A stretch of 48,965 bases of DNA from an uncultured beta proteobacterium (GTDB lineage Bacteria > Pseudomonadota > Gammaproteobacteria > Burkholderiales > Burkholderiaceae_C), in NCBI GenBank assembly GCA_903853895.1, contig CAINUX010000060.1, positions 1 through 48,965 of the forward strand, read 5' to 3'. The notes under the pieces are model-generated. The model was not told the DNA's origin. It was given only the letters and a program-made list of their open reading frames with translations, and did no database searches. Positions 13,575 to 45,771 of this stretch are shown piece by piece. The position numbers were made by a program, and so were the translations under genes. Every line of letters begins with the position of its first letter. Within the stretch, counting starts at the first letter, position 1.

Positions 13575-14567
13575 ATGCAAGACCAGACCAAACAGAATCG
13601 CCTGATCACGGTCCTTACCCTGGTGGCCTTGGTGGCCATGATCAGTGCCTTTTTTGCTCCAATCTGGTGGGTCTCACTCACCGCGCCCAACTATCCGAAA
13701 GATGCCTTCCCGGACGGGATTCGCATCCACTTTCACTTTGATGTGGTCAAGAATGGTTGCAGCGCTGTGGGTGCCAGCACCCGCATGGGATCAGAAACCA
13801 TGCAGGCCGACATGGGGCCGGATTCCGAGCGCTACAACCCGATTCTGGATGCCAAGAAAGACGTCAACAAAGACGCGGCCGGTCTGGATTGTGTGCATGA
13901 GATGAACACCATCAACCATTACGTTGGCATGTTCCCCATTGCAACGGGTGCACCGGTCGAGAAGCCGTTGGCCAAGTTCTTCTTTGGTTTTTTTGCGGTG
14001 ATGTTGCTGGGCTTCATAACGCCAGAGGGCAAGCGCCGCCTGCTCGTCTTGGGCAGTGGCTTTTCGGCAGTTGCAGTCTGGATGCTGGTACACCAATTTG
14101 CGCTGGGCCACCTGGCGGAGCACGTGAAGAACTATATGGCCGAAGCGGCCACCTTTTTCAACGAGCCCGCACGCATCAAAGTGTGGGGAGACAACGTCAC
14201 CCTGTACAGCCAGATCGCCATGGGCGGGCTCATCGCTGCGATGGTGGCTGTGGTCATTGGTGTTGCCAAGTTCCGTCGGTTCGTGTTGCTACTCGTGTTG
14301 GTTCCCAGCTTACTGCCGCTCTATTTTGTGATTGAGTATGCAGGGTGGCTCTGGTTTTTTGGCCACAACATGCACGCCTGGGGTGCGTTCACGGTCAAGC
14401 CGTTTATGCCGACCTTGTTTGGTGAAGGCAAAGTCGCGCAGTTTTCCACCTACTCGTACCCGTATTGGGGCTATGGATTATTGATGGTCGTGTTCGTCTG
14501 TTTGACTCTGGCGATGTTGATGCGCCGGCGGCAATTACGTGAAGCGGATCAAGGTCTTGGGGCATAG
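13575..14567 (+). CDS. nosB: NosB-like polytopic membrane protein
   Basis: 330 residues with about five to six membrane segments: one at the N-terminus (LITVLTLVALVAMISAFFAP), then a periplasmic loop of about 110 residues with two cysteines, then a bundle from about residue 135 to the C-terminus. Position (after the nosZ/cytochrome genes and before nosD), size and topology agree with NosB, a membrane protein specific to clade II nos clusters and of unknown biochemical function. The assignment rests mainly on context. Confidence 0.7.
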   Translation: MQDQTKQNRLITVLTLVALVAMISAFFAPIWWVSLTAPNYPKDAFPDGIRIHFHFDVVKNGCSAVGASTRMGSETMQADMGPDSERYNPILDAKKDVNKDAAGLDCVHEMNTINHYVGMFPIATGAPVEKPLAKFFFGFFAVMLLGFITPEGKRRLLVLGSGFSAVAVWMLVHQFALGHLAEHVKNYMAEAATFFNEPARIKVWGDNVTLYSQIAMGGLIAAMVAVVIGVAKFRRFVLLLVLVPSLLPLYFVIEYAGWLWFFGHNMHAWGAFTVKPFMPTLFGEGKVAQFSTYSYPYWGYGLLMVVFVCLTLAMLMRRRQLREADQGLGA

Positions 14568-14568
14568 C

Positions 14569-22256: not shown

Positions 22257-23113
22257 GACCGGACGTGGTGCAAACGCTGCTGCCCCTGGCGCTGGCGTTC
22301 ATCATGTTCTACCTGGGTCTGACTCTGGTGGTGGCCGACTTTCGACAGGTGGCGCAGCGACCCAAGGCGCTGGCGGTGGGGCTGGTAGGGCAGGTGCTGT
22401 TGGTACCCCTGGCCGGGTTTGCAGTTGTCCGATTGAGTGGGCTGGACCCGGTGATGGCCGTGGGCCTGATGGTGTTGGCGGCGTGCCCCAGCGGGGTCAG
22501 TTCCGGCCTGTTGACCCATCTCGCGCGGGGCGACACGGCGCTAGCGATTTCGTTGACGGCGGTCACCAGCCTGGCATCGGTGTTGACGCTGCCACTGGTG
22601 GTGGGCGCGGCCTACCAGGTTTTCATGGCCAGCCCGCTGGCAGTACAGCTGCCGGTGGCGGCCATGGTCAAAGGCATCTTTGTGCTCACCACCTTGCCGG
22701 TGTTGCTGGGCATGGTCTTGCGCTGGCGTTTTGCGGCAATGGTTATGCGCGTGGAGCCCACCATCGGAAAAGTCACCACCACCCTGTTTGTGTTGATTGT
22801 GCTGAACACCTTCTGGGACCAGCGCCAAGTGCTGCTCGACAACCTGCCGACGCTGGGCCCCGCCGTTGTTGTGCTCAATGTGCTGATATTGGCTGGGGCG
22901 TACGCCCTGTCCCGAGTGACCGGTTTGACGCGGCGTGATTGCATCGCGGTCATCACCGAGTGCGGCTTGAAAAATTCTGCGCTGGGCATTGTGGTCAGCC
23001 TGCAGTGGTTGCACCAACCGGCCATGAGCGCGCCCAGCGTGGTCTATGCGTTGTCGATGAACGCCTTTGCGCTGGCGTTTGTCGTGCTGATGCGCAAAAC
23101 CGTGAAGTGGTGA
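22253..23113 (+). CDS. Bile acid:sodium symporter (BASS) family transporter
   Basis: 286-residue polytopic protein with a GTG start overlapping the menA-like stop (GTGA). It shows repeated membrane segments and the family features ACPSGVSSGLLTHLARGDTALA and ECGLKNSALGIVVSLQW. BASS proteins move organic anions (bile acids, pantoate, 2-oxoacids) with sodium. A role in nitrous oxide reduction is not known to me. Its place between quinone genes and a second nosD suggests transport of a quinone precursor or another anion, which is speculative. Confidence 0.82.
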   Translation: MRPDVVQTLLPLALAFIMFYLGLTLVVADFRQVAQRPKALAVGLVGQVLLVPLAGFAVVRLSGLDPVMAVGLMVLAACPSGVSSGLLTHLARGDTALAISLTAVTSLASVLTLPLVVGAAYQVFMASPLAVQLPVAAMVKGIFVLTTLPVLLGMVLRWRFAAMVMRVEPTIGKVTTTLFVLIVLNTFWDQRQVLLDNLPTLGPAVVVLNVLILAGAYALSRVTGLTRRDCIAVITECGLKNSALGIVVSLQWLHQPAMSAPSVVYALSMNAFALAFVVLMRKTVKW

Positions 23114-23115
23114 CC

Positions 23116-24330
23116 ATGCAGCGCGTAGCCTGGCTCGTTTTGGCTCTGGTCTGCACGCTGGCCATTGCGTCGGCCAGCGCCAGCGCGCCATCGCTGCAGG
23201 CATTGATCAATGCCACACCTAGCGGCGCAACCTTGCGGCTGGAACCCGGCGTCTACACCGGGCCGGCTACCATCCGTGTGCCCATGGTGGTGGAAGGCGA
23301 CCACCACGCGGTGATCCAGGGCAACGGCCGTGGCACCGTGCTCAGTGTCGAGGCGCATGACGTTACGTTGCGCGGCCTGCGCCTTCAGGGTAGTGGGGAC
23401 TCGCATGACGGGGTCGATGCCGGCTTGCTGCTGCAAGGCAATGGCCATGTGGTGGAGGACAACGACTTTGAAGACGTGCTTTTCGGCATCCACCTGAAGG
23501 CCGTCAACCGCGCGCGGGTCTTGGGCAACCGGGTGACAGGCAAGGACCTGTCCATGGGCCTGCGCGGTGATGCCATCCGGCTGTGGAACAGCCATGACAA
23601 CCGGATCGAAAACAATGCGTTTGTCCGGGCGCGTGACCTGACCTTCGCCAACTCACCGTACAACCGCATCGTGGGCAACCGCTTTACCGACGGGCGCTAC
23701 GGCATGCATCTGATCTTTTCGCCGCATCTGCATATCGAGGGGAACACCCTGACCCATACGGGCACCGGCATCGTGGGCCTGTACTCTGCGGATCTGACCA
23801 TTCGTAACAACCACATCGCCCACGCGCTGACCGACGGCGGCGCCGGTATTGTCATCAAGGAAAGCCCGGGTTCACGGGTGGAGTACAACCAGATACTGCA
23901 CTGTGGTGTGGGCTTGAAGGCAGATGCGTCGCTTGATGCGGGCAACGCACTGGTGGTGCGGGGCAACCTGTTCGCCCACAACATCATTGCGCTGTTTTTC
24001 TACGGTGAAGTGGGTGGGCACCAGTTCACCGGCAACCGCTTCGACAGCAACCTGACCACGGTGGCCGTTAGCGCGCCGGGCGTGGCCAGTGCCAACCAGT
24101 GGCGGGACAACACCTGGGACGAGTACCAGGGCTTTGACCGCAACCACGATGGTGTGGGCGACACCGCGCATGAACTGTTTCTGTATGCCGACCGCATCTG
24201 GATGGAGACCCCCATGGCAACTTTTTTCCGAAACTCGCCCGCGCTGGAAATGCTGGATTTCTTAGAACGCCTGGCACCGTTTTCCTCACCTTACCGCCTG
24301 CTGCGTGACCCGGCGCCCCGCATGCACTAA
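23116..24330 (+). CDS. Second NosD homologue
   Basis: Exported parallel beta-helix protein, 404 residues, signal MQRVAWLVLALVCTLAIASA. It shares with the first NosD the block GSGDSHD near the helix start, the FDRNHDGVGDTAHEL segment and the C-terminal MLDFLERLAPFSSP. It lacks the first copy's N-terminal 50-residue extension. The start is 2 nt after the transporter gene. A role in metal-centre maturation is likely by homology, but why the locus needs two copies is unknown. Its direct partners here are the Sco and flavoprotein genes, not NosF/NosY. Confidence 0.9.
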   Translation: MQRVAWLVLALVCTLAIASASASAPSLQALINATPSGATLRLEPGVYTGPATIRVPMVVEGDHHAVIQGNGRGTVLSVEAHDVTLRGLRLQGSGDSHDGVDAGLLLQGNGHVVEDNDFEDVLFGIHLKAVNRARVLGNRVTGKDLSMGLRGDAIRLWNSHDNRIENNAFVRARDLTFANSPYNRIVGNRFTDGRYGMHLIFSPHLHIEGNTLTHTGTGIVGLYSADLTIRNNHIAHALTDGGAGIVIKESPGSRVEYNQILHCGVGLKADASLDAGNALVVRGNLFAHNIIALFFYGEVGGHQFTGNRFDSNLTTVAVSAPGVASANQWRDNTWDEYQGFDRNHDGVGDTAHELFLYADRIWMETPMATFFRNSPALEMLDFLERLAPFSSPYRLLRDPAPRMH

Positions 24331-32343: not shown

Positions 32344-33000
32344 TCAGGGTTGACCTGACTGGATTAGCGTCAAGTAGGCCAGAATGTCTTGCAGGTCCTG
32401 GGCCTTAAGCTGGTTGAGTATGCCGACCATTTCCACTTCATCATGCGAGCGCTCGCCTTTGACGAAGGAAGTCATCTGCTTCATCAGGTAGCTGCTGTAC
32501 TGGCCCACCAGGCGCGGAAACTTGCCACGGCCCATGCCGTCCTTGCCGTGGCAGGCAAAGCATTCCTTGCTGTAAATCTGTTTGCCATTGTCCAGGTCAC
32601 CCGGTGCGCGGGGAATGATCATGACCTTTTCCATGGCGGTCAGGCGGGTCAATGCGTCGTCGTCGGGCTTGAAATCGGGCCATTGGGTAGGAAGTTCGAT
32701 GGCTGCCAGGTAGGCCGAGACGTCTTCCACATCCTGGTCCGACATTTCCCTCTCTTGGGTATAGGGGAACATGGGCAGGTTGATGCGGGTGCGGTTGCGA
32801 AAGGATTTGAGCTGGTCGGCAATGTGGGCTGCGCGCTGCCCGGCGATGCGGGGGTATTCCCCCTTCTTGCCGCCCTGGCCGAACTCGCCGTGGCAACCGG
32901 CGCAGGTGGCGTTGATCTCCTTGCCTTTTTCAAGATTCTGGGCACTGGCGAACGGTGCCGTGCAGGCGAGTAAGAGGCAAAGCAGCAGTGTTTTCATCAT
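32344..33000 (-). CDS. Dihaem cytochrome c (c4-like)
   Basis: 218 residues with a Sec signal (LLLCLLLACTAPFASA). Haem motifs are CAGCH (C33-H37) and CFACH (C147-H151). Likely methionine ligands are in LPMFPY and VEMVGIL. The protein parallels the dihaem cytochrome of the nos locus (12825-13565) in both domains, so the two are probably paralogues. Starts at 33000 and 32997 are both possible. An FNR-like box lies about 90 nt upstream. It heads the operon with the ankyrin and DUF411 genes. A role in anaerobic respiration is inferred. Confidence 0.88.
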   Translation of the reverse strand: MMKTLLLCLLLACTAPFASAQNLEKGKEINATCAGCHGEFGQGGKKGEYPRIAGQRAAHIADQLKSFRNRTRINLPMFPYTQEREMSDQDVEDVSAYLAAIELPTQWPDFKPDDDALTRLTAMEKVMIIPRAPGDLDNGKQIYSKECFACHGKDGMGRGKFPRLVGQYSSYLMKQMTSFVKGERSHDEVEMVGILNQLKAQDLQDILAYLTLIQSGQP

Positions 33001-33083
33001 GGGTCCGGGGCCAACCCCATCGGCTTTCGAGGTTGGCCATTGTGGCCCGGATGCCACCGCTGCGCATTGAAACAGGATAAGTT

Positions 33084-33097
33084 TTGACCTACATCAG
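33084..33097 (-). promoter_or_regulatory. FNR/DNR-like box upstream of the dihaem cytochrome operon
   Basis: On the plus strand TTGACCTACATCAG, matching TTGAT-N4-ATCAA at eight of ten fixed positions. Its centre is about 90 nt before the cytochrome start on the minus strand, which suits an activator site at -41.5 with a leader of about 49 nt. It resembles the nosZ box and suggests shared anaerobic or NO control. Confidence 0.5.
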
Positions 33098-33331
33098 CAG
33101 GTGTTCGAATCTTATACGGAACGAAACACTACATGAGTATCCCAATTCATTGCAAGCAATGGTCATATTCAATGATCTAGTGCGCTGGCACTAGATTTAT
33201 AAAAAGTAGAACACATTTCCATCTAGTGGCAGCTTACTACAAGCCAGCGCATATCAGCCCTCCTAAAGGAGGCGCAATAACACTGTCTATCAAAGGTGGG
33301 GCGGAGAACCTAAGCAGGGGATACGGCCTGC

Positions 33332-33373
33332 GGCCTAAGCCCATTGCCGAACATCTGATGTCGGCTTCAGGCC
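33332..33373. repeat. Imperfect inverted repeat in the MCP upstream region
   Basis: GGCCTAAGCC (33332-33341) and GGCTTCAGGCC (33363-33373) are complementary with one bulged base across a 21-nt loop. An inner partial pairing GCCGA/TCGGC competes with the outer stem, so two alternative folds exist. Function unknown. Confidence 0.4.
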
Positions 33374-33667
33374 AACAGCGGGTGCACAGATTTGCGATCT
33401 GCCACCTCTAAACCGGTCGTTCGAATTGACCGCGCTATTCCCGACAAGTGAAGATTCGATAATGGCAAAAACACACAAGGCTTGACTCGCCGCTTTGAGT
33501 GGCCTAGGGAAAACCCTTCACAGCGATGTATAGATTCATTTGTTTGATGTAACACAAAGTCCCGTGACCCAGAAGGGCTGGATCATTACCCGGTAGTTGT
33601 CACTACAACTTGGCCTCGGTTGCGCTTATCTGCGATCGTCAATTCAATAAAAAAAGGGAGACTCACC

Positions 33668-35416
33668 ATGCCACTCAATGACTTGCGTATATCCGTGCGG
33701 CTGATGCTGGGCTTCGGCATCTTGGGCTTATTGATCGTGCTTTTAGGAGGCCTTTCGCTGTTCAAGACGAACGAGGCAGATAGTGCTTTTAAGTCTGTCA
33801 TCAATGAGCGCGTTCCCCGGATGATGATGATGGATGACATCAAATCCAACGTCTACGAAATTGGCCTCTCATTGCGCAATATGGTCGTAGTGTCCGAGCC
33901 TGCGGATATTAAAAAGCAGGTCGACAACGTAATGGCCAAACGCACGGCCATCGCTGAATTGGTAATGACTCTGCAATCCCAAATCAAAACAGAGAAGGGC
34001 CAAGCACTGCTGGTCAAAATTTCTGAGGCCCGTGGCGGGTACGTTGACACTGGAAATAAGTTTATCGAGATGGTGCAAGCTGGAAAACAAGACGAAGCCA
34101 AGCCGTTTTTGCTGGGCACGGTGCGCCCAACGCAACTGGTCTACTTTGCAGCCATTGAGGATTTGGTGAAGTTTCAACAAGAGCTTATGCAGGAAGCCGG
34201 GGGGCGGGCCAATGCGGCCGTGTCCTCCATCACCACAACGATTTGGTCGGTGGGTATTTTTGCCATTCTGTTCGCCTGCGTCATGGCGCAGTGGATCATT
34301 CGATCGATCACCACACCCATTAATCTGGCGGTTGATGTTGCTCGCACAGTGGCCAATGGCGATCTAACCCAGCAGTTCGATTCCAATGGAAATAACGAAA
34401 CTGCACAGCTGATATCCGCCTTGAAGGAGATGCAGGCCGGTTTGGTCAAGGTGGTCGCCAATGTACGCAGCGGCTCAGAAGGCATCGCCACCGCCAGTGC
34501 CGAAATCGCCCAGGGCAACAACGACCTGTCCGCCCGCACCGAGCAACAGGCAAGCGCACTCGAAGAAACCGCTGCTTCTATGGAAGAACTGAGCTCCACC
34601 GTCAAGCAAAACGCCGACAGCGCCCGCCAGGCCAATCAACTTGCAATGAGCGCATCGTCAGTCGCCGTGCAAGGCGGTGTGGTGGTCAGCCAAGTGGTGG
34701 ACACAATGAAAGGCATCAACGAAGCCAGTCGCAAAATTGCCGACATCATCAGCGTGATTGACGGAATTGCCTTCCAGACCAATATCTTGGCCCTCAATGC
34801 GGCGGTAGAGGCCGCCCGCGCTGGCGAACAGGGCCGCGGATTTGCCGTGGTGGCCTCTGAGGTGCGCAGCCTGGCCGGGCGCTCGGCCGAAGCCGCCAAA
34901 GAGATCAAGGCCCTCATTGGCACCAGCGTAGAGCGCGTGGAACATGGCACTGCTTTGGTCGACCAGGCAGGCTCTACCATGACCGAGGTGGTGGACAGCA
35001 TCAAGCGCGTGACCGACCTCATGGGCGAGATCAGCGCCGCCAGCAATGAACAATCCCAGGGTGTGGATCAAATTGGCGAGGCAGTAACCCAGATGGACCA
35101 GGTCACTCAGCAAAACGCTGCACTGGTAGAGGAAATGGCGGCCGCTGCATCCAGCCTGAAAGGTCAAGCACAAGACCTCGTTCAGGTCGTTGCTGTGTTC
35201 AAGTTGGACGCTAACCAGCATGATCCACGGGTAGCACCACGGGCCAATTCGTCGAGGCCGTCGGGAGGTGGTATGCGCCAAATGCCACTGGCTCACAAAC
35301 CTGTTGCCAAGTCGCTGGCCTCAAAGGCGCCATCCCCGTCCCGCACTGTGCCCAAGGCATTAGCCAAACCCGTATCGCCGGCTGCGGGTGGCGATGACAG
35401 TTGGGAAACCTTTTAA
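33668..35416 (+). CDS. Methyl-accepting chemotaxis protein
   Basis: 582-residue transmembrane chemoreceptor. First membrane helix at about 9-30 ([20 protein letters not shown]), a periplasmic four-helix-bundle-type sensor of about 160 residues, second helix near 190-212 ([18 protein letters not shown]), then HAMP. The signalling hairpin tip [20 protein letters not shown] is canonical. The C-terminus ends in WETF after a flexible Pro/Ser/Lys linker, like the NWETF pentapeptide that tethers CheR/CheB in high-abundance receptors. The ligand is unknown. The ribosome site AAAGGGAG and the hydrophobic N-terminus fix the start at MPLNDLRIS. Confidence 0.94.
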
Positions 35417-35448
35417 GAGCGCAATTCGTTTAACACGTAGGAATTGCC

Positions 35449-35661
35449 ATGGAAGGGGAATCGTCTAAACCAGAGTCCAATGAACAGTTAAGCAAATTGG
35501 CTGACGCATTGGGCGATATTCGCGACTCTTTGGTGACCGTCTCGATGGCATTGACGGACTTGGTGACCGAGACACCGTCACCTGCAAGAGACGAGGTCAT
35601 GGTGGAAGTAGAGCGTTATCTATGCCGGATTCGTGAAGCACATAAACGGGATTTTGATTAG
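35449..35661 (+). CDS. Small acidic protein downstream of the MCP
   Basis: 70 residues, acidic and helical (LSKLADALGDIRDSLVTVSM), no signal or membrane segment. A modest ribosome site (TAGGAA) precedes the ATG and the gene lies 32 nt after the MCP stop, so co-transcription is likely. I do not recognise the family. Codon use looks ordinary for the window. A real gene is likely but not certain. Confidence 0.5.
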   Translation: MEGESSKPESNEQLSKLADALGDIRDSLVTVSMALTDLVTETPSPARDEVMVEVERYLCRIREAHKRDFD

Positions 35662-35873
35662 AAATCAGTGCCCATCCGTTGGTTAGGAAGTAATTGAGCT
35701 TCTCGATACCGGGCATTGACGATCGGCAGCTATCGCTGCAAAGCGGGTGCAGAATCTGCTCCATTGCTGACGTCCGGCAAGAGGACATCCAAATACCTGT
35801 TTAACAGGAAAGGGGGGGGATGTTTCGGCACTCGGGAACCAGGGCACCAACAGCATCAGGACACGCCAGCTTT

Positions 35874-38105
35874 TCAACAGCCGTACCGCTTCGCTACATG
35901 GGCTTCGCCCATCAAAACCCTTGACCGTAGGCTAAACCCCGTTGTTCGGGTGATACGGCGTGCAAGCGCCATTTCCAAGGCCATTGCGTCACCCACCAGA
36001 ATGACCAACTCGCGTGACCTGGTTATCGCCGTGTAAATCCACTCCCTCGTCACGAGACGCGAAGCCTCAACCGCAATCACCACAGCTTGCGAGCCACTAC
36101 CCTGCGCCCGGTGGCAGGTGATTGCATAGGCCAGTTCAATGTCTGCCTCTGCCGCCTGCGGCAAGCTCCTGGGCTCTCTGTCCCCGTCCCACCAAATGGC
36201 CACTTCAGACCCAGCGATGGAGTCCACCACCCCCAAGAGGCCGTTGAACAAACCATCCTGATACCGGTTGACGGTTGCCACTACGGGGTCGCCAACCGCC
36301 ACTGTTGCCAAAGGCCCAAGCCTTCGGGTCGACGTGGTCGTGCTTCTGGCTTCGAGTGATTCACCTTCGTTGATGGCTTCTACAGTGGCCTTTCGTGCTG
36401 CAATCACCATTAATTCACCCGTGGCTCGCAATTTCCGCTGCACTCGATCCATATCCCCCGTGGGGACCAGAAATACCCCCTTGGTCTGGCCAGACCATGT
36501 ACCCAGTCGCGGCATTTGTCCTTGTCGAACCGAAGCGGCCACCTTGGGTATGTCGCTGTCGGCGGCCTGCCTAAGCACTTGAGTAAGCCTTGCAACACGA
36601 CTGCCCTCGGCGACCACATCATGGAAGACCCGACCGATCCCCACCGGTGGAAGCTGTCCTTCATCACCTGCGAACAATAGCCTTGCGCCTTCAGGCAGGA
36701 GGCTGAGTAATTTGTGCAGACTGGGGGTATCGAGCATTCCGGCCTCATCCACCACTAGCAAGGACTTGGAAGTGAAGTCCACATCGGAGGTCGGTCGATT
36801 GAAGGCGGGGTTTCCTTCCTGCACCTTCTGACGCTCTAGCATGCCAATCAATCGGGCGATGGTGTAGGCCAACCGAGGTCGTGCAGAAGTCGATGCGCCT
36901 TTGGAGAGCGTCAGTGCGGCTTTACCAGCCAAAGCACCCATCACCACATCACCACCCAAACGCTCCCAGACTGTCGAAAGAACCTTCATCACCGTGGTCT
37001 TGCCCACCCCAGCACCGCCTTGCAATGCAGCTACTGGTAGTGTCAGCAACCGCACCACGGCAGAATGCTGTTCATCGGTGAGGGTCAAACCGGTTTCCAG
37101 CTCGGCGTCGTAGACCGCTGAATCCAAGGCCTGTCCGGACGGAATTGGCACGGTTGGAGCTGTGTTTTCCATGGCGAGCAATGCTGACACAACCTGATCC
37201 TCCAGCCACGCGGCACCGGGAGCCCGCAGCAAGTGCCCTATTCGGCGTAATGAGCCGTTTTCTGCGGCGAGGGCAAGGGTTGCTTCAGGGTCGACGCCGC
37301 GCTTCTCTAGGAGGCTCTTGACCGCTTCTTCTGTGGCAGCAGTGTCACCTTCGCTCAGCAACTCACGCCAGACGCTTTGGAGTGCCCCCATCAACCGGGC
37401 AGGGTGAGTATGCAGATCGGCACCTTCGCCGGTACTCCTGAGAAGTCGTTGCCCGATCCGATCCGCAGGCTTCCAATCCATCAGACATGCAGAAACATAG
37501 GGGTTGCGCTTGAGCCGGCCCACGGCATCAAAGCCCGCCATGAAGCGCCAGAGCTGACTGGCGATTCTGGATTCATTCACACCCAAGGTTTCGAGGAAGG
37601 TGAGGAATTGCACCTCGGCAGATCGCATCTGATCGGCACCGGCTTGGTTTGCCACAGCAGCATAAAGCTGCGCGGTGATTTTGGCAGCCAGAGCGGGTTT
37701 GCCAGGTTCAAGCAGCTTGGCCACTTCATCGACCCGACTGACGTCACTAAGCAAAGCTTGAAGTTCATGTCCAAAGGCGGAGACTAGGCGCTTGGCACGG
37801 GTATCACCAATATTGGGTAATCTTTCCAGCCATGGCCCCAAGAGGGAGCCAGGCGTTACCACCCGCTGCATGTGCTTGCTGTCGATTTGCACCACGGTCT
37901 TACCGAACCGATCGCGATGCTGATTGATCAGGCCTTTGACCTGGAAGGCATCACCCGGCAGCGGCTGAGTGTCATTACCAGCAAACTTGACCCGTATGGG
38001 CTGTCCGTCACTGAGTCGCCCGCCGAAGATGCAGCCACGATCCAACTGGGAAAGCACTTTCTCCACCACCACGGTGTCATCGAACGGGTAGGCAGAACCG
38101 GTCAA
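35874..38105 (-). CDS. RecD2-like ATP-dependent DNA helicase of the element
   Basis: 743-residue superfamily 1B helicase. The N-terminal part looks like an OB-type domain (FGGRLSDGQPIRVKF), then helix-hairpin-helix (LPNIGDTRAKRLVSAFG, 96-112) as in RecD2/TraA relatives. Motif I is GGAGVGKT (363-370), motif II VVDEAGMLD (451-459), motif III GDEGQLPPVG (480-489), and a C-terminal HRAQGSGSQAVVI (665-677) with YTAITRSREL. All ATPase residues look intact. Last gene of the recombinase operon. It could unwind element DNA or process recombination intermediates. Helicases are not usual partners of tyrosine recombinases. Confidence 0.85.
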   Translation of the reverse strand: MTGSAYPFDDTVVVEKVLSQLDRGCIFGGRLSDGQPIRVKFAGNDTQPLPGDAFQVKGLINQHRDRFGKTVVQIDSKHMQRVVTPGSLLGPWLERLPNIGDTRAKRLVSAFGHELQALLSDVSRVDEVAKLLEPGKPALAAKITAQLYAAVANQAGADQMRSAEVQFLTFLETLGVNESRIASQLWRFMAGFDAVGRLKRNPYVSACLMDWKPADRIGQRLLRSTGEGADLHTHPARLMGALQSVWRELLSEGDTAATEEAVKSLLEKRGVDPEATLALAAENGSLRRIGHLLRAPGAAWLEDQVVSALLAMENTAPTVPIPSGQALDSAVYDAELETGLTLTDEQHSAVVRLLTLPVAALQGGAGVGKTTVMKVLSTVWERLGGDVVMGALAGKAALTLSKGASTSARPRLAYTIARLIGMLERQKVQEGNPAFNRPTSDVDFTSKSLLVVDEAGMLDTPSLHKLLSLLPEGARLLFAGDEGQLPPVGIGRVFHDVVAEGSRVARLTQVLRQAADSDIPKVAASVRQGQMPRLGTWSGQTKGVFLVPTGDMDRVQRKLRATGELMVIAARKATVEAINEGESLEARSTTTSTRRLGPLATVAVGDPVVATVNRYQDGLFNGLLGVVDSIAGSEVAIWWDGDREPRSLPQAAEADIELAYAITCHRAQGSGSQAVVIAVEASRLVTREWIYTAITRSRELVILVGDAMALEMALARRITRTTGFSLRSRVLMGEAHVAKRYGC
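35893..35901. repeat. Candidate left direct repeat of the element
   Basis: GCTACATGG, identical and in the same orientation as 44762-44770 in the core site at the guaC end. It lies inside the last codons of the helicase gene. The surrounding bases do not form the full inverted repeat seen at the other end, and the 7 nt before it differ. It is only a candidate attachment half-site. Confidence 0.35.
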
Positions 38106-38599
38106 TCGATTACTCCCACCATCATTCCCGAGTGGATCACATCAAGTTGGGCCTTGAGACGTGTGTTTTCAGCCTTGAGTGATTCGTTCTCAATAACGAC
38201 GTCACGCAGCTTTTCGAGGAGTTCAGCAGTGGCAGACTGGGCCTCCACGGCAGCTTGGGCGCTGGCCTTGGCAGACTGGGCAGTCCGAACCATGCGGTCC
38301 TTGAGTGCTTTGTCGGCAGCATCAACCAAAAGCCTGGAACCAATTGGCATCAAGCCTTGTCCCTCAGCTACCAGATTGATCAGGCTAGTGAGTTCCTGTC
38401 GCTCATAGAGGTACTTTTCTTGGGTCTGCTTGAGGTCAATGGCCTGTGCCACCGCGCGCACGTTTACCTTCCCGTCAGGGGTGGAGGGCAGGGTCGGAGT
38501 ACGCTGTTCCTCGGGCATGGCAAGGAATGCAGCCTCCATGCGCTCAAGATATTGCTCTAAATTTGCCTTCACGTTGGGGATGACGGATGGGCGGGGCAT
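38102..38599 (-). CDS. Small coiled-coil protein of the element
   Basis: 165 residues without membrane segments. The N-terminal 60 residues are mixed; the C-terminal 55 residues (VVIENESLKAENTRLKAQLD) have a clear heptad pattern, predicting a dimeric coiled coil. A proline-rich start (MPRPSVIPNVKANLEQYLER) resembles the small TnpC/DUF6262-like partners of Tn554-type recombinases in plan, though I cannot confirm homology. The ATG shares one base with the preceding stop (TAATG). Its stop overlaps the helicase start (ATGA). Confidence 0.75.
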   Translation of the reverse strand: MPRPSVIPNVKANLEQYLERMEAAFLAMPEEQRTPTLPSTPDGKVNVRAVAQAIDLKQTQEKYLYERQELTSLINLVAEGQGLMPIGSRLLVDAADKALKDRMVRTAQSAKASAQAAVEAQSATAELLEKLRDVVIENESLKAENTRLKAQLDVIHSGMMVGVID

Positions 38600-39105
38600 T
38601 AGCGATTTCCTTTCGGGAAGGGCGTGACCTTGCTGGCAGCACCGGCGCGCATCTGCTCCAGAAGGGCGTCGTATTTGAATTTCAACTCCGCCAAAGCCTT
38701 TTGTGCGTCTTGCAACTGCACCTCTGCATCTTGCAGATCCAGTTCCGTGGCGATGTGGACGTCTTGCAAGGCAAGATATTTGTGGCGCCAGTCTTCTGCG
38801 CGCTCAAAGGCAGAGCGTTGGACGTTCTTGCGCCCGACGACTTCCGTTTTTTTCAGCGACTCGACCCAGGCTTTGACATGCCTGCCCAGTTCCTTTTGCT
38901 TCGGGGCGAACAGGGTGGTTTCCGATATTTTGGCGCGCCGCGCCACCTCGTTCATGCTGACAGCTCCCCCGTTTTCGGGGTAGATGCCGTTGTTGGCCGC
39001 CATCTCCTTTCGGATGGTCACCATCGCCTCACGCACCTTTGCTTCCACTCCTGCTGTTCGTGCCTCGCCGCGCAGGCGTGCGGCCTCTTTGTGCGTTTCG
39101 CTCAT
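38599..39105 (-). CDS. Coiled-coil protein with helix-turn-helix-like segment
   Basis: 168 residues from MSETHKEAARLRGEARTAGV; an in-frame upstream extension would lie inside the recombinase gene and is rejected because the ATGA overlap fits the operon's pattern. Residues 48-75 (AVSMNEVARRAKISETTLF) read like a helix-turn-helix of the kind in TnpC/KfrA-like or TetR-like proteins. Residues 115-152 form a long amphipathic coiled coil. Likely a DNA-binding accessory that orients or regulates recombination. Confidence 0.75.
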   Translation of the reverse strand: MSETHKEAARLRGEARTAGVEAKVREAMVTIRKEMAANNGIYPENGGAVSMNEVARRAKISETTLFAPKQKELGRHVKAWVESLKKTEVVGRKNVQRSAFERAEDWRHKYLALQDVHIATELDLQDAEVQLQDAQKALAELKFKYDALLEQMRAGAASKVTPFPKGNR

Positions 39106-41243
39106 GTGGCGGCCTCCAGAATTGCCCGTACCCCAGGCTTGGCACGCCACTTTGCACCGATGTCGTCGTAGCGCTTGAGTTCCTGATCCAACTGCTTCTT
39201 GTTGTGCGCAAAAGGGAGCCAATCGTTGCTGGCGATGCTCTCCTGCGCGTGCTGCACCAGAATGGGTATGACTCGCTCGGTGTCACGCCTGCCGGTCTTC
39301 TCCTCAATGTGGTTCCTGCACTCTGTCTGGCAGTTGCCCGCGACTATCGCGCCCTTCTTCTTGCTACACAGTCCGACTTCTTCGGCGGTCTTCGTGCAGA
39401 TCACATGTGCACTGATGAGGCGTGCACTCTCACCGTTATTGGTCAACAGCACCGAGAGTTCACGCGCAGTATTGACTCCCCATTCCTTGCCGGTGCGATG
39501 CAGTTCTTCCTCATAGGCTCGCACAGAGTTTCGTAGTACCGGTGCACCGCCACCGCCATGTCCGCCATAAGGTAGTCCGCTGGGATCACGCAAAGCTGCG
39601 TGCATATCCTCTATCAGTGCCTGGCCACGCATGATCCGCAGCTCTCGCGTGATATCGTCGACCTCCTTGGCGAAGGCCCGGTCTGATTGCATGTAGCCCA
39701 GTGTCGTGGTCACATCATCGTGGCCGAGCAGCAGCATCAAGACTTTTTGACTGCCGTCGATGGCTAGGCCAGCCAGCCGCGCAAGGGTCTTGCGGAAGCG
39801 ATGCGGGTGTAGGTTCTTGCCTCCTGGCTTATTGGTTAAACCGATGCGCAAGGCAAGAGTTTGAAGGTTTTCTCCATAAACTTCTAGTTTTTGTGTCGCG
39901 TCTGAATTACTACTTGCACCGAGCGATGCCCACAAATGGGTGCGATCGCTAAAGGCACCCTCCATCTCATCGGTATATTTGATGATTCTGGCTAGGCGCT
40001 CGCAAGCCTCAACGAGCTTCACTTGCTGAGCGAACACATCTACCAAGAAATCCGGAATCGGCCATTCGCGTTCCTTCCCAGAAAGGGCGCGTGAGGCTTT
40101 GTACGTCTTGCCGTTGGCGTAGGGCTGACCATCCCGTGCGAACTCCACGCAATCGCGCCCAAGCGTTGCCACCTCGCCCATGCGCGCAGCCATGACCAGC
40201 AGTGCCATCCAGATGTGTGCGCTTTGCAGAGAGACGGCCAAGGATTGGACGCTACTCCAATTTTTTGGTGGCCACTCGGCGTGGTCGTGTTGTAAGGGAT
40301 CCGAACGAAGGTGTTTTCCGCGGTCGCTGCCATGCTTAAGGATGAACGGAGGTTTTTCAATCAACTGTCCGTTACGGTCATGCCAACTGTTGGCCGCGAA
40401 GTAGTTGATGACGCGTCGATTAATAGATTGGTTGTTGGCATTGACGGTTCCAAGTAGATCCGGGAGGTTCTCCAGGAGATGGATCAGGTTTGGGCCCAGG
40501 TCCTTGATCAGCCACAGCACTCGCGGGCCCATAGCTGCCAGGTAGTCATCCGGGATTGGAGGGAAAGGAATGCGTTTTTTCTCTGGTTGGCGTCTGTGCG
40601 GTATACCGAGCACCGCGGTTGACTTGCCCTTGAATTCCCGCGCTTCAGGCGCATCGGACCAGAAGCCAAGACTGCGCAACTGAGTCAGACGTTTAAGTTC
40701 GTTACGCATGTTTGCGTTTGCCCAGCATGTACGCAAATCTTCTGTCGTTAAGGCGGAGGTGAACTCTGTGCTGGAAGGGGCCGTGCTGTCCAATCTTGAG
40801 GTTGCCCCAAGTGCAACCAGTTTGGCGAATTGCCAATTCATTAATCGAGAAATCGTGCTCGCATCCAGCGATTTGAATTTCGCCGTTCCAGCCAATCCTG
40901 CAGGTCCCATACGCATGAGCAGAGCTAGACGAGTTAACCACAGCACGCCTTCATCCAGAAGAGCGTCGAGAGCAGATGATTCTGACGTCTCATTGGGCAT
41001 GTAAGAGGCAATACGCCGGCGAAGGTCAACGCGACGCGAGTAGTTTGCCATATGTGGAACCATTGCCTCTGGGGTCTCCCAAATGCCAAACGTCACGCCG
41101 TGCCCCAGCATTGTCTGGCAGCGCCGGGCGCTGTCTATATCGAGGTTCTGCAAGCTTTCCAAAGGGAACAGCGCCTGTGCCTGGCTAAGCGTAATAGCTT
41201 GATAAGATGACAACGCCAAGGGCATATTATCTGGTGCGCTCAT
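39102..41243 (-). CDS. Large tyrosine recombinase (third of the trio)
   Basis: 713 residues with an intact tyrosine-recombinase catalytic set: R354 (MAARMGEV), a lysine near 379-382, H481-x-x-R484 (HPHRFRKTL), H508 (LLLGHDD) and nucleophile Y517 (TTTLGYMQS). About 340 residues precede the catalytic domain, much longer than usual. A C-terminal extension of 190 residues has C616, C626, C638 and C642, a possible zinc site. The start overlaps the stop of the middle gene by 4 nt. Likely one of two catalytically active recombinases of the element. Confidence 0.85.
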   Translation of the reverse strand: MSAPDNMPLALSSYQAITLSQAQALFPLESLQNLDIDSARRCQTMLGHGVTFGIWETPEAMVPHMANYSRRVDLRRRIASYMPNETSESSALDALLDEGVLWLTRLALLMRMGPAGLAGTAKFKSLDASTISRLMNWQFAKLVALGATSRLDSTAPSSTEFTSALTTEDLRTCWANANMRNELKRLTQLRSLGFWSDAPEAREFKGKSTAVLGIPHRRQPEKKRIPFPPIPDDYLAAMGPRVLWLIKDLGPNLIHLLENLPDLLGTVNANNQSINRRVINYFAANSWHDRNGQLIEKPPFILKHGSDRGKHLRSDPLQHDHAEWPPKNWSSVQSLAVSLQSAHIWMALLVMAARMGEVATLGRDCVEFARDGQPYANGKTYKASRALSGKEREWPIPDFLVDVFAQQVKLVEACERLARIIKYTDEMEGAFSDRTHLWASLGASSNSDATQKLEVYGENLQTLALRIGLTNKPGGKNLHPHRFRKTLARLAGLAIDGSQKVLMLLLGHDDVTTTLGYMQSDRAFAKEVDDITRELRIMRGQALIEDMHAALRDPSGLPYGGHGGGGAPVLRNSVRAYEEELHRTGKEWGVNTARELSVLLTNNGESARLISAHVICTKTAEEVGLCSKKKGAIVAGNCQTECRNHIEEKTGRRDTERVIPILVQHAQESIASNDWLPFAHNKKQLDQELKRYDDIGAKWRAKPGVRAILEAAT

Positions 41244-43351
41244 ACCAACTCTAAGAGGTCAGGTGAGGAAGCCCAGGGCAGGCCGGGCACGTAATGATCT
41301 CCTGCGGCAATCGCCTGTGCCCATTTCTTGCGAGCCGTCAAGCCTTGGTTCAGATCAAACTTATGTAGTGCCATTAGGTTGTTCTTGAGTTCAATTTCAT
41401 ACATTTCCTCAATCCATGTTTCTATTGGCAGATATCCCTGTAACGCCCGCAGTTCCTCGGCGCGCATTGCGATGCCATTCAGCGATTCGGGCAAAAGCAC
41501 GGCGTTTTCCAGGCACAAAAGGCAGCGCTGCACATCACAGTCTCTGTCAACAGTTGCCTTTATTTGAGAGGGTGGGTGGCGAGCATCCTTGCACGCCACG
41601 TTCATTCGGCTCTTTGGCAAGGTACGCGCCTCGGCGAGAAGCTTTTCCTGTTCAGGCGTCAGAGCCCCGTATCGGTACAAATGGGTGAGGATTGTCAAGT
41701 CGACCCGTCCTGAGTCCAGTTCTTCCACCAGAATGTTGAGGAAACGCCGCGCGGCGTCGCTCGCCTCCTGGTTCAGGATGTTGGTGTCAGAATAGCCACG
41801 GGAGGTGCCCAGCCGAGAATGGTTAAGTGCTTTCTTTACGTGGAGCATGTTGCCGTGGCTTGCGCGGTACACATAGTCGGCAAACCAAACTCGGAAGTCT
41901 TTCGCCGCGACATGGGGAACAGGCGCAAGTAGCTCTCGCCTGCTTTCTGCACGTCGAACATTGGTGGCTGCCCGCTGTATGTTCGTCAAATGAACCACCT
42001 CGTCTAAAAGAGTTGCCTGCTTTCCATTAACTTGGCCGCACTGCGAGGACTTTTCGTGTAACCAACTGACATTTCTACTTCGGTCGACATACAGCCACAC
42101 GCTGCGCACTCCCTGCTCCAGAGTGCTCACCTTTGAAAACTGTGACGTGCGCGCTGAGTAGGCGGCATCGTCCAATTGCTTATATTTGAGCTTTTCTTGT
42201 TCGAGTTGCTGCTTGATAATTTGGCGCAATGGCTCCACACGCATCAGGTAGGTTTTGATCAGGTGGCCTGGGCCGTCTAGTGTCTTCCATTGACCAGTCA
42301 CAATTTGTTCTTTGCCACCTGCACGTTCCTTTTCTCCAACCAGCTCGTAGGTCTCCGCGCTCAGCACGAAGCGCCGGTGGGGATCGTTGGGGTCATCTTT
42401 AAAGTGGTCGAACAGGAACTTCTTTGTGGCGTCCAGGGTCGTGAGCGTCGACGGGTTCCATCCGGTGCATACTAGGCACTGATGCCACACGGCCTCTGCA
42501 TCCCAGTGATTTGGAAAGACGGACTCCCGTAAAGACATTTTGAAGTGTCCATTGGTATTGAGCGCCCAGGAAGGTATGCGATCGTGCACATCATCAGGTG
42601 TCGGTAATACCTTGCTGGTTACTCGCTGGATATGGTGCATGTACCTTACGTTGCGCCACAGTTCGACTTCCTGTGGGGCGTTTGGATTTGGGTCGCTTTG
42701 ACTGAGCCTGTCGGAGCTTTCGAACCGCTGTAGCACCTTGCGGCATGTACTCCTGATTGCAAAACGGACTGCATTGCGGTGCTCCTGCTGCGGGATATGT
42801 TTTTGGGTGTCCGAGTCTTCGGGTGATTCCCAGTACGTCCGACGGAAACTGAGGGCCAAGCGGGTGTCGTCGACGAGGCGACGGAATAGTCCGAAGCGCT
42901 GACGGCCCATTCCGCTGCGATGGGCATATTCGCAATGCAACTGCGTTAGTAGACAGGCATCCTCGACCCGTGTCATGGGTTGGCCAGCCTTCGTTGCTGC
43001 CTTCTCAACTGCATCGAGGACCCGCCACCATTCGCGTAGCGCCTTCACGTAAGACTCTACGGTTTGACTTGCGGCATACGCAAGCGATTCTTCGATTGCG
43101 GGCACCAGTTGGTGGATGAGTTCTGGCCGACCGGAGAACGGTATGAATTTCATTCCGCCTCCATTCCTGTTGGTTGATTTTTCCTGGCCCGTGGCGAACG
43201 CGTGCAGGTTAACTTCACAGGGCTCAATCTCATGCTGTGTCCAGAACACCAGTGGATCGTCAGACTCTGGGGCGTCAACTCTGACCGGAAATGCCAGCGC
43301 AACGCCCGCGTGCTCCTTCAGGTGATCTTTGTTATAGGTGCGGATGCTCAC
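41240..43351 (-). CDS. Degenerate tyrosine-recombinase-like protein (middle of the trio)
   Basis: 703 residues. The C-terminal half keeps the shape of a tyrosine recombinase but not all residues. The arginine I position is in CLVCTGWNPSTLTTLD with N299 in place of Arg. HxxR is replaced by K484-D-F-R487. H511 and Y520 (ALNHSRLGTSRGYSD) remain. A Cys cluster (C587, C605, C610, C613) follows, suggesting a zinc-binding tail like that of the 713-residue partner. The likely role is a structural or DNA-binding partner in a mixed recombinase complex. The reading frame is open and overlaps both neighbours by 4 nt, so it does not look like a decaying pseudogene. Confidence 0.75.
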   Translation of the reverse strand: MSIRTYNKDHLKEHAGVALAFPVRVDAPESDDPLVFWTQHEIEPCEVNLHAFATGQEKSTNRNGGGMKFIPFSGRPELIHQLVPAIEESLAYAASQTVESYVKALREWWRVLDAVEKAATKAGQPMTRVEDACLLTQLHCEYAHRSGMGRQRFGLFRRLVDDTRLALSFRRTYWESPEDSDTQKHIPQQEHRNAVRFAIRSTCRKVLQRFESSDRLSQSDPNPNAPQEVELWRNVRYMHHIQRVTSKVLPTPDDVHDRIPSWALNTNGHFKMSLRESVFPNHWDAEAVWHQCLVCTGWNPSTLTTLDATKKFLFDHFKDDPNDPHRRFVLSAETYELVGEKERAGGKEQIVTGQWKTLDGPGHLIKTYLMRVEPLRQIIKQQLEQEKLKYKQLDDAAYSARTSQFSKVSTLEQGVRSVWLYVDRSRNVSWLHEKSSQCGQVNGKQATLLDEVVHLTNIQRAATNVRRAESRRELLAPVPHVAAKDFRVWFADYVYRASHGNMLHVKKALNHSRLGTSRGYSDTNILNQEASDAARRFLNILVEELDSGRVDLTILTHLYRYGALTPEQEKLLAEARTLPKSRMNVACKDARHPPSQIKATVDRDCDVQRCLLCLENAVLLPESLNGIAMRAEELRALQGYLPIETWIEEMYEIELKNNLMALHKFDLNQGLTARKKWAQAIAAGDHYVPGLPWASSPDLLELV

Positions 43352-44751
43352 TCGTTGTCCCCCTGGTCAATGTCTTCATCAATGAGCTGCTCCATATAGC
43401 TCTCATTGAAGTTCATGTTCACACCCAGACGGTCCGAAACCCATTGCAGGTAGATCATGGTGGTCTCAAGCGAGACGTGCCTGAGTTGGCGCTGGATCGT
43501 CAACTGGATGAATCCTTCGATGTTTAGCGTTAAAAGTTTTAGCGCAGAGGGATCTGCATTGTTCTTTATGGCGGATTCAACCAAATCCTTTTGCTCTTCA
43601 AGGTGTTTCCACAACATGCTGCAGGCCCAGAAGTCCCGCGCCAAGTGAGGCGACCAGCCATGCGGACGTTGAGCGCTTTTACTTCTCCAGAAATCGTATA
43701 TTTTCTGCCCGGTGTAGCGCTCACCAGTGGCTGGATTGAGAAACAAATGAACAGCGTTGATGCGCAGGGTTTCCGCCTCACGGACGTTTTTTGCTTTGCG
43801 CAGTGCAATCGTCAGTGCCTTGGGCCGAACCTTTTGACGGTACTCGTGAAGCTTGAGCGCCATTGGCATGGGTAGGAGAATGTCGCCCTCGGGGCCAATC
43901 TTATCGCCATGGTCAAGGCCGTAGTCGTGTCCCTTAGTCTCGTATCTCAACTTGACACATACGGCCTGATGTTCGAGTGGTCTGTCTTGATTGACGATAT
44001 CCCACTCATCTGTGTCTAGTGGCAGGGTATCCATACGCCATGCCGCTGCCTCCGCACGGCGTACGGCGGTTTCAAGGATGAGTTCAGCAATGAGGCCTTC
44101 AACAGCGCATTTTTCACGAACCCGCGTCAGCCACGCACCAATCTCCCGTTCATCGGGAAACCCAAGCCGTCGCTTGCTTTCCCTGACTTTCCCGCGCCGT
44201 GTTTCAACGGTCTTGGTCGCCCGAGCCCCGCTGCTCTCACGTTTGTCGACTACGAACGTCTTACGAACCTTCGGGATATGAAATGGTTCGCGCAGCCCTT
44301 TATCAACCGTCCATTGCAAGAACATGCAAGCAATTTCAACTCGTGAGTTGACTGTTTTTGCAGCTAATCTAGTGTTGTCGCGGGACCAACTGCCGGTACT
44401 CATTTCTCCCTGGTAGCCTTGGATCAAGTCGATTTTGTAATCGGCCTTGAGGGGGTCTTTGCCACGGGCGTGGCAATACTCAAGGTAGTTGGACAACCAG
44501 TGCGCGTAGTTGTGCATGGTGGCTCTGGTCGGCGGCATAGTTGATGCCTGCTCAAGCCCGCGCGTCCCGGCACTCCATTCGCCCAAGCCTAGATCAATGA
44601 GAAATTGATTGGCGATCCGGTGATAGCCGGGACGGCTATCCATGATGAAGGGGAGATGGGCGACCCGCCCGAAACCTCTACCTTCAAGGAATTTTTGAGA
44701 TGGATAGACCACCCGATAGGGATAGTCAGTAGTGTGTTTTGAAACTTCCAT
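43348..44751 (-). CDS. Tyrosine recombinase/integrase (first of the trio)
   Basis: 467 residues with all catalytic residues visible: R231 (ETAVRRAEAAAW), K273 (YETKGHDYG), H369-x-x-R372 (WSPHLARDFW), H425 (LRHVSLETT) and nucleophile Y434 (TMIYLQW). A core-binding (SAM-like) domain covers about residues 70-165, followed by a basic linker (TKTVETRRGKVRESKRR). An insertion of about 100 residues lies between Arg I and HxxR. The start codon is inside the left arm of a perfect inverted repeat, so binding of the recombinase there could repress its own operon. First gene of the element, reading away from guaC. Confidence 0.9.
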   Translation of the reverse strand: MEVSKHTTDYPYRVVYPSQKFLEGRGFGRVAHLPFIMDSRPGYHRIANQFLIDLGLGEWSAGTRGLEQASTMPPTRATMHNYAHWLSNYLEYCHARGKDPLKADYKIDLIQGYQGEMSTGSWSRDNTRLAAKTVNSRVEIACMFLQWTVDKGLREPFHIPKVRKTFVVDKRESSGARATKTVETRRGKVRESKRRLGFPDEREIGAWLTRVREKCAVEGLIAELILETAVRRAEAAAWRMDTLPLDTDEWDIVNQDRPLEHQAVCVKLRYETKGHDYGLDHGDKIGPEGDILLPMPMALKLHEYRQKVRPKALTIALRKAKNVREAETLRINAVHLFLNPATGERYTGQKIYDFWRSKSAQRPHGWSPHLARDFWACSMLWKHLEEQKDLVESAIKNNADPSALKLLTLNIEGFIQLTIQRQLRHVSLETTMIYLQWVSDRLGVNMNFNESYMEQLIDEDIDQGDNE

Positions 44752-44770
44752 GTAGTCTCATGCTACATGG
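44748..44770. repeat. Inverted-repeat core site, candidate attachment site
   Basis: CCATGTAG (44748-44755) and CTACATGG (44763-44770) are perfect complements around the 7-nt spacer TCTCATG. Extending to 15 nt per arm (44741-44755 and 44763-44777) gives 12 of 15 complementary positions. Two binding arms around a 6-8 nt overlap region is the classical tyrosine-recombinase crossover layout. It lies between the guaC stop and the first recombinase gene and includes that gene's start codon. Confidence 0.65.
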
Positions 44771-44784
44771 AACTTCATTTTAAA

Positions 44785-45771
44785 TCAACCTAAAAGGTTT
44801 GCCCCTGTAGCGCCCGCGTTGTCGCCACCCAGGGTGACGTAGTTCACCTTGCGGATATCCATCAGCTTCTTACCGCCCGAGTAGCTAATGGAGCTTTGCA
44901 CGTCCTGCTCCATTTCTATCAGGGTATTGGCAAGCTTGCCCTTGATAGGCTCCAGAATGCGCTTGCCCTCGACGTGTTTGTACTCGCCCTTGTTGAAGTC
45001 GCTGGCAGAGCCGTAGTACTCTTTGAACAGCTTGCCGTCCACTTCGACCGTCTGGCCGGGGCTTTCCTCGTGGCCTGCAAACAGGGAGCCGATCATCACC
45101 ATGGTGGCGCCAAAGCGGATGCTCTTGGCAATGTCCCCATGGTCACGGATTCCGCCGTCGGCAATGATGGGCTTGGTGGCCACGCGGGCGCACCACTTGA
45201 CGGCCGACAGCTGCCAGCCACCGGTGCCAAAGCCGGTTTTGAGTTTCGTGATGCAGACCTTGCCGGGGCCAATGCCGACCTTGGTGGCGTCGGCTCCCCA
45301 GTTCTCCAGGTCAATCACCGCCTCGGGCGTGGCCACGTTGCCGGCGATGATGAAGGTGCTGGGCATCTTGCCCTTGAGGTAGATGATCATGTCGCGCACG
45401 CTGTCGGCATGGCCATGGGCGATGTCGATGGTGACGTACTCGGGCGTCAGGCCCAGCTCGGCCAGTGTGTCTACCGTGGCGTAGTCGGGTTTTTTGACCC
45501 CCAATGAGATCGAGGCATACAGCCCCTTGGCCTTCATGTCTTTGACGAACTGCACGTTGTCCAGGTCGAAGCGGTGCATCACGTAAAAGTAGCCGTTTTG
45601 CGCCAGCCATACGCATGTGGCTTCGTCGACAACAGTCTTCATGTTGGCTGGTACTACGGGAATGCGAAAGCGTCGCCCACCCAGTTCTACGCTGGCATCG
45701 CACTCCGAGCGGCTCTCCACGCGGCACTTGCGGGGTAACAGCAGGATGTTGTCGTAGTCAAAAATTTCCAT
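44785..45771 (-). CDS. guaC: GMP reductase
   Basis: NADPH-dependent conversion of GMP to IMP in purine salvage. 328 residues of the IMPDH/GMPR barrel family without a CBS insert. The active-site loop [11 protein letters not shown] has catalytic C173. NVATPEAV and [19 protein letters not shown] are family features. The length suits the short (Bacillus-like) GuaC type. The last 18 residues after NYV are unlike what I recall of the family, and the element begins within 15 nt of the stop, so the 3' end may have been rebuilt by integration. No terminator separates it from the recombinase genes. Confidence 0.93.

Follow-up and report, generated by a model that had tools for sequence, protein, structure and literature searches.

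Strand-biased circularizing integrative elements (SEs), SE-6945 and SE-6283 among them, carry an operon with a catalytic recombinase, a degenerate member, a large catalytic recombinase and a small auxiliary protein in that order (IntA-Tfp-IntB-Srap), and once integrated they have the attB 6 bp at attL and a copied 6-bp fingerprint at attR (PMC10214605). They are bounded by imperfect terminal inverted repeats (C and C') and form circles with a strand bias, leaving no empty donor site. The window analyzed here, a stretch of 48,965 nucleotides from an uncultured beta proteobacterium of the order Burkholderiales (contig CAINUX010000060.1), contains an integrative element at the 3' end of guaC, the GMP reductase gene, that probably is SE-like, with R1 and R3 as catalytic recombinases, R2 as the degenerate member, CC1 as a Srap-like protein and the pair CC2-HEL as a separate helicase cassette. 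Judged by gene order, catalytic residues, profile comparisons and the 6-bp footprint, the SEs are the nearest known kind. Shared with them are the order of the four core genes, 6 bp from the host at attL with an unrelated 6 bp at attR, a specific target, a complete RHRY set in IntA and IntB as in R1 and R3, and the size (11.7 kb here, the median published for SEs being 15.7 kb). The Burkholderiales hosts, the weak inverted repeats in the window and the added CC2-HEL cassette are different, as is R2, which is ∼120–135 aa longer than the six Tfp sequences used and has no significant profile match to them.

These comparisons draw on three publications (PMC5385486, PMC10214605, PMC9345347). The GInts (ginABCD) share three integrase-type proteins and a small protein, cargo, a far end of lower GC content and one member without the first Arg, but their first two integrases are catalytic and the third, GinC, is degenerate (PMC5385486, PMC10214605), whereas the degenerate member is second here. 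RIT elements share three recombinase-type genes in a row and differ in the fourth gene and in the degenerate active site of R2 here, while Tn554 (TnpA/TnpB/TnpC) shares two recombinases, a coiled-coil factor and a 6-bp footprint (PMC10214605) but is without a counterpart of R2 or Tfp; both were set apart by description rather than by sequence. The gamma-mobile-trio (GMT) systems (GmtY/GmtZ/GmtX) share the pair of CC2 and a RecD-like helicase in one member, that of the Acidiphilium multivorum plasmid NZ_CP041717. Membership of the GMT systems was considered and rejected, as no NCBIfam Gmt profile matched a window protein at E ≤ 1, and the same library matched all three proteins in the GMT locus L035. 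A sequence-only reading of the window had seen a mixture of RIT, Tn554 and GMT features, which gives way here to the SEs as nearest kind: R1–R3 match no GMT profile, and the recombinases of the RIT archetype have 315–410 aa (PMC10214605), against 467, 703 and 713 aa in the window. In the literature, covered largely at the level of listings and abstracts, no SE or GInt was found to be described with a helicase or with guaC as its target.

Insertion at the 3' end of guaC

The bounds of the element (Table 1) follow from an empty site together with the relocated end of guaC. At the empty site (L004), guaC aligns with the window from position 44811 and is followed by 46 unaligned bases that include the native gene end, beyond which there is an in-line match to window positions 32699–33081. 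A pattern for the native guaC end gave a single match in the window, at 33088–33109 (two mismatches, 0.01 expected), which places the displaced gene end just outside the right end of the element. The native ending EHLLM was found in 27 of the 29 same-genus loci returned (L003–L031), the remaining two being L008, with an altered end like that of the window, and L011, which is cut by its contig. In L008 (genome G022) the guaC end of the element-derived type is followed by different sequence, and the contig stops 162 bases on. Relatives of R1 are located at guaC in three further loci (L041, L043, L052), but L040, the R1 of which is 82% identical to that of the window, sits in an aminotransferase-like gene, and guaC is therefore not an absolute target. 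GC content is 55.1% at 33104–44810, compared with 59.9% in the rest of the window, with a dip to 40% at 33100–33199.

The sequence-only reading had proposed an integrative element that has several recombinases and its own helicase, and had suggested a comparison of empty and filled sites; the empty site, the native gene ends, the displaced guaC end and the R1 relatives at guaC bear out the former and supply the latter. Its interval for the element, 35874..44770, covers the operon only, and its statement that there is no cargo does not hold, as a methyl-accepting chemotaxis protein (MCP) gene and a 70-aa open reading frame (ORF) lie within the bounds, followed by the displaced guaC end.

The 6 bp of guaC beside the left terminus, motif C, vary in L041, L043, L052 and L008 in the way that native guaC genes vary, and the 6 bp at attR differ from those at attL at 4/6 positions, with the native site taken from relatives. 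The right terminus, C', agrees with the left ends of five relatives at a mean of 8.4/10 positions, a value that none of the other 23,378 element positions scored could match, the left-end motif used for this scoring having been picked by eye. A shorter 8-base form of the motif has one additional match elsewhere in the window, and motif searches for the right ends of the relatives gave none that could be assigned (one of the searches covering four genomes with an exact 10-mer). The 8-bp inverted repeat at the start of R1 is possibly an operator or a recombinase (arm) site; comparable inverted repeats precede R1 in L041 and L043.

Table 1. Positions of the element, its termini and its genes in the window.
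Feature	Position	Strand	Basis or remark
Whole integrative element	33106..44810	-	∼11.7 kb; bounded by motif C next to guaC and by the right end with its 6-bp footprint
Displaced guaC 3' end	33088..33105	-	Right flank of the empty site; pattern search
attR 6-bp footprint, foreign to guaC	33106..33111	-	guaC resumes at 33105
Motif C', right terminus	33112..33126	-	Family left-end motif on the opposite strand; match to left ends of relatives
Cargo: MCP gene	33620..35416	+	Named from translation; inside element bounds
Cargo: 70-aa ORF, no function assigned	35449..35661	+	Translation; inside element
HEL, RecD2-like helicase, cassette gene 2, 743 aa	35874..38105	-	TIGR01448
CC2, cassette gene 1, 165 aa, predicted helical	38102..38599	-	Sequence comparison, structure model
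CC1, Srap-like auxiliary protein, 168 aa	38599..39105	-	hhalign with SE Srap
R3, IntB-like large tyrosine recombinase, 713 aa	39102..41243	-	R354 K382 H481 R484 H508 Y517; Cys 616/626/638/642; hhalign with SE IntB
R2, protein at the Tfp position, 703 aa	41240..43351	-	N299 replaces first Arg; HxxR without His; C-x4-C-x2-C motif
R1, IntA-like tyrosine recombinase, 467 aa	43348..44751	-	R231 K273 H369 R372 H425 Y434; hhalign with SE IntA
8-bp inverted repeat with 7-bp loop	44748..44770		Spans the R1 start codon; read from sequence
guaC (GMP reductase), insertion target	44785..45771	-	NCBIfam GMP reductase; terminal EHLLM replaced by ATGANLLG
Motif C, left terminus	44797..44810	-	Source of the new last codons of guaC; start motif common to left ends (alignment by eye)
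attL spacer, 6 bp of guaC beside motif C	44811..44816	-	Same as native guaC of relatives

The recombinase core and its distribution

The operon consists of six minus-strand ORFs of 467, 703, 713, 168, 165 and 743 aa, which overlap successively by 4, 4, 4, 1 and 4 nt, in line with the 1–4-nt overlaps described from the sequence, and guaC adjoins it upstream of R1. Its first four genes are found, with their order unchanged, in six further Burkholderiales loci (L042, L044, L045, L046, L047, L051) and in a more divergent form in L049 and L050, and the operon is therefore not a chance arrangement (L036 and L034 are duplicates of L047 and L050, respectively). The catalytic set is complete in 11/13 R1 sequences, L043 being cut and L048 broken (11/11 of those covering all positions, bar the broken L048), and in 10/11 R3 sequences, L041 being cut.

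Profile comparison with hhalign gave probabilities of 97.2% for R1 with IntA, 96.4% for R3 with IntB and 93.1% for CC1 with Srap, against ≤11.4% for role-swapped SE pairs. The SE profiles were built from six plasmid operons including that of SE-6945, with L064 left out (genes split), and those of the window family without partial or broken sequences (R1 minus L043 and L048, R2 minus L040, R3 minus L041 and L048). In PHROGs, R1 and R3 match integrase families, HEL helicase families, and CC1 weakly a single family with no assigned function. Plasmids of Paraburkholderia phytofirmans (L057, L063) carry a four-gene integrase operon of unassigned type that is partly similar to R1 and R3 by profile, the probabilities being 30% for R1 with its first gene, 9.5% for R2 with the second and 67.6% for R3 with the third.

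All three large proteins had been taken for tyrosine recombinases on first sight of the sequence, and this stands for R1 and R3 with their complete catalytic sets; for R2, neither NCBIfam nor Pfam gave a recombinase match at E ≤ 1, and two of its catalytic residues are missing. Its first Arg is Asn in 11/11 sequences, and HxxR is without His in all 10 that reach further. The structure model (pLDDT 74.3, pTM 0.49) nonetheless has a recombinase-like fold, as the nine best PDB matches are all tyrosine recombinases, although only the top one, XerH (5JJV), falls below E 0.001, and TM-scores are low, with a poor overall superposition (0.22 by query). The same structure is named for Tfp (PMC10214605). 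A Cys motif, C-x(4,5)-C-x2-C, is present in 9/10 R2 and 6/6 Tfp sequences, spaced with x4 in R2 and x5 in Tfp, and is absent from all R1, R3, IntA and IntB profile sequences and, the second proteins of the Paraburkholderia operon aside, from every other protein set compared; in shuffled sequences it arose in 2/2000, 7/1200 and 5/400. R2 resembles Tfp in position and Cys motif only.

A scan of the genome collection with the R1 alignment returned 13 loci, mostly from Burkholderiales, with Microvirga in addition. The R1 profile was found in 4/61 same-genus genomes (one weakly) and R1, searched as a single sequence, in 1/369 genomes of the class, R3 in 2/300 genomes of the order, and the CC2 profile in 1/399 genomes of the order and 2/398 of the phylum, the second being a 52-residue match (E 9.7e-4); these counts include the source genome and come from genome samples with a filtered first look. 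A further divergent core within the genus (L075) is cut at its contig start. Among plasmids, R1, R2 and R3 each match Microvirga VF16 only and CC2 matches Acidiphilium only, whilst HEL matches 1901 records, the best being Acidiphilium at 37.7%. A phage origin was rejected: R1 had no match in phages, and scans of viral contigs gave none with the CC2 and R1 alignments and one distant helicase with that of HEL (L055, 28%).

The CC2-HEL cassette

HEL aligns with the RecD2 profile TIGR01448 (E 1.2e-77) over nearly its whole length (protein residues 39–720, profile positions 28–703 of 713), which agrees with the RecD2-like helicase recognized earlier, though the score of 262 bits is about half the curated cut-off of 500, and HEL differs from RecD2 in being element-borne together with CC2. 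The model of CC2 has long helices (pLDDT 68, pTM 0.29), and its profile probability with CC1 is 21% (window 38102–39105), such that CC2 might be a distant Srap-like paralogue.

The helicase had been listed among the six genes of the element in the sequence-only reading; by comparison of related loci it does not belong to the shared core. Among eight cores with sequence continuing beyond CC1, the pair is present in L044 and L051. Between the window and L044, the core proteins are 32–48% identical but CC2 is 88% and HEL 80% identical, and nucleotide similarity sets in at the first base of CC2 and continues up to the final bases of HEL; elsewhere there are just two patches, of 40 and 49 bp. L044 and L051 share a single nucleotide match, which starts one base before CC2 and runs into HEL. 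The cores of L051 (Piscinibacter) and L045 (Hydrogenophaga) are 78–86% identical, and their match stops 13 bp past CC1, 7 bases into CC2. Isolates are among the hosts, with Piscinibacter defluvii SH-1 carrying the cassette and Duganella sacchari Sac-22 and Hydrogenophaga sp. IBVHS2 not showing it over the stretch covered. On the evidence of these alignments, CC2-HEL is an exchangeable, separately inherited two-gene cassette.

Between gmtZ and gmtX, the Acidiphilium multivorum plasmid carries counterparts of CC2 (33% identical) and HEL (38%), joined by 4-nt overlaps. Profiles assign that operon to the GMT type, with GmtX scoring above the cut-off and GmtY (1.2e-87) and GmtZ (3.3e-128) below it. 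It is a single case, the pair being missing from 4/4 further GMT-type plasmid operons inspected, of 145 other records with a GmtZ-like match. A tblastn search with CC2 and HEL (E ≤ 0.1) also gave nothing in 14 more loci, namely L036, seven SE, four GMT and two Paraburkholderia loci. Near two enterobacterial plasmid operons of SE type (L058, L062) there is an annotated gene of the DEAD/DEAH-box helicase family, which had no tblastn match to HEL at the same threshold.

The explanation that stands closest to the one proposed here, and to which we give nearly an even chance, is that CC2-HEL is ordinary cargo, for example a defense or maintenance system, with no role in recombination. The pair was not found within ∼5 kb after CC1 in L042, L045, L046, L047, L049 and L050, where the tblastn search likewise returned nothing; the core therefore seems not to need HEL, and HEL could be plain cargo, a point that counts against the reading of this locus given above. 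The cassette has sharp borders and lies at the border of core and cargo, where the cargo of GInts starts (PMC5385486). In PADLOC, RecD-type and candidate-system matches were returned for HEL alone, the top one being type IV RecD (E 1.5e-50), which is probably a generic helicase match. Set against this are the 1–4-nt overlaps in the window and the 4-nt overlaps in Acidiphilium, the presence of the same pair in two different recombinase operons, and the lack of any PADLOC match for CC2 at E ≤ 0.01.

Alternative readings and a proposed route of movement

Several further observations weigh against an SE-like element. Motif C of the window is atypical, with a mean agreement of 6 with the left ends of the relatives and 46 places equally good, and it agrees with C' at only 7/19 positions. 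The footprint is known from one element bounded at both ends. The profile match of R2 with Tfp, at 0.7%, is not significant; R2 keeps Lys, the second Arg and Tyr in 10/10 sequences and the second His in 9/10, whereas Tfp is reported to be without RHRY. The Cys motif was chosen post hoc, from an alignment already seen, and it also occurs in 2/2 second proteins of the Paraburkholderia operon. SEs are reported in Gammaproteobacteria only (PMC10214605), with none in Alpha- or Betaproteobacteria, a statement of reported range and not of mechanism. The label SE-like, rather than SE in the strict sense, was chosen because of the R2–Tfp and C–C' values, because strand bias is only predicted, and because the GInts were compared by description.

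That last comparison bears on a second explanation, which we regard as improbable, that the locus is a GInt with the helicase as its first cargo gene. GInts do occur in Betaproteobacteria (PMC10214605), GinC is described as lacking the first Arg as R2 does (PMC5385486), and the three integrase-type genes, the small gene beside them, the cargo and the lower GC content of the right end are all in keeping with a GInt. The degenerate protein, however, is third in GInts and second here, where the third (R3) is fully catalytic, and the gene order and three profile matches agree with the SEs.

Somewhat less probable again is that the cassette was inherited vertically with all cores and often lost, its recent appearance being due to slow evolution. 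HEL is 68–80% identical among the three Burkholderiales cassettes, against 32–48% for the cores, and its fourfold sites are at expectation between the window and L051 (28% observed vs 29% expected) and between L044 and L051 (29 vs 28). Between the window and L044, however, there is an excess in HEL (43% vs 27%, 334 sites) and CC2 (52% vs 30%, 79 sites) and not in the core (R1 30/27, R2 26/25, R3 23/25, CC1 33/28); in other distant pairs, deviations of up to 9 points are seen among the core genes (for example 35/26 for R3 of L042 and L051). Judging from this excess, the cassettes of the window and L044 most likely have a more recent common origin than their cores.

Least probable is a decayed, immobile remnant, since none of the six ORFs is interrupted, the catalytic residues of R1 and R3 are retained and the element has both of its ends, although decay does happen in such elements, as the broken copy at guaC in L052 indicates (L052:5338–6549), in which the left end is kept and R1 similarity ceases after 64 residues.

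Beyond the element, window positions 9731–33057 hold a cluster of nitrous-oxide-reductase (nos) type and other genes between the flank of the empty site and a garR-like reductase gene (8862–9731), including two NosD-like genes (14539–15945 and 22939–24330), all named from translations. In L003 the garR-like gene directly follows guaC, and this difference in the nos region seems separate from the element.

Sequence comparison gives the gene arrangement, the target with its empty site, the footprint, the homology of three core proteins by profile and the separate history of the cassette, and from these we infer the mobility of the SE-like element, its strand bias and the roles of R2 and HEL. On the SE model, and given the termini and the homology, R1 and R3 would carry out cleavage and joining at C and C', staggered by 6 bp, and R2 and CC1 would assemble or orient the recombination complex. 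The resulting circle would include 6 bp from the former left flank and insert at the guaC 3' end, those 6 bp would stay at attR, and the element would close the guaC reading frame with about eight codons. CC2 and HEL, translationally linked to the operon, would most likely act after the first strand exchange, on the single-strand-joined intermediate, where HEL would most likely unwind or displace a strand for replicative circle formation; such a role is suggested by the coupling of the pair to operons of two recombinase families. The broader proposal, in which CC2-HEL would serve tyrosine recombinases that move DNA replicatively (copy-out) as a portable unwinding module, swapped whole between SE-like and GMT systems, is tentative and on balance doubtful.

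SE movement is thought to be copy-out, and the enzymes that act after the single-strand exchange are unknown in the field. If the proposal is true, the CC2-HEL module would supply the strand-displacement step that SE models assign to unknown host factors. The locus would extend SE-like elements beyond the Gammaproteobacteria, to which the 2023 survey confined SEs, and a helicase cassette that has had a history of its own is now seen in two distinct families of elements with several recombinases. As the cores of Piscinibacter (L051) and Hydrogenophaga (L045) are closely related and only the former has the helicase in the stretch covered, the role of HEL is directly testable.

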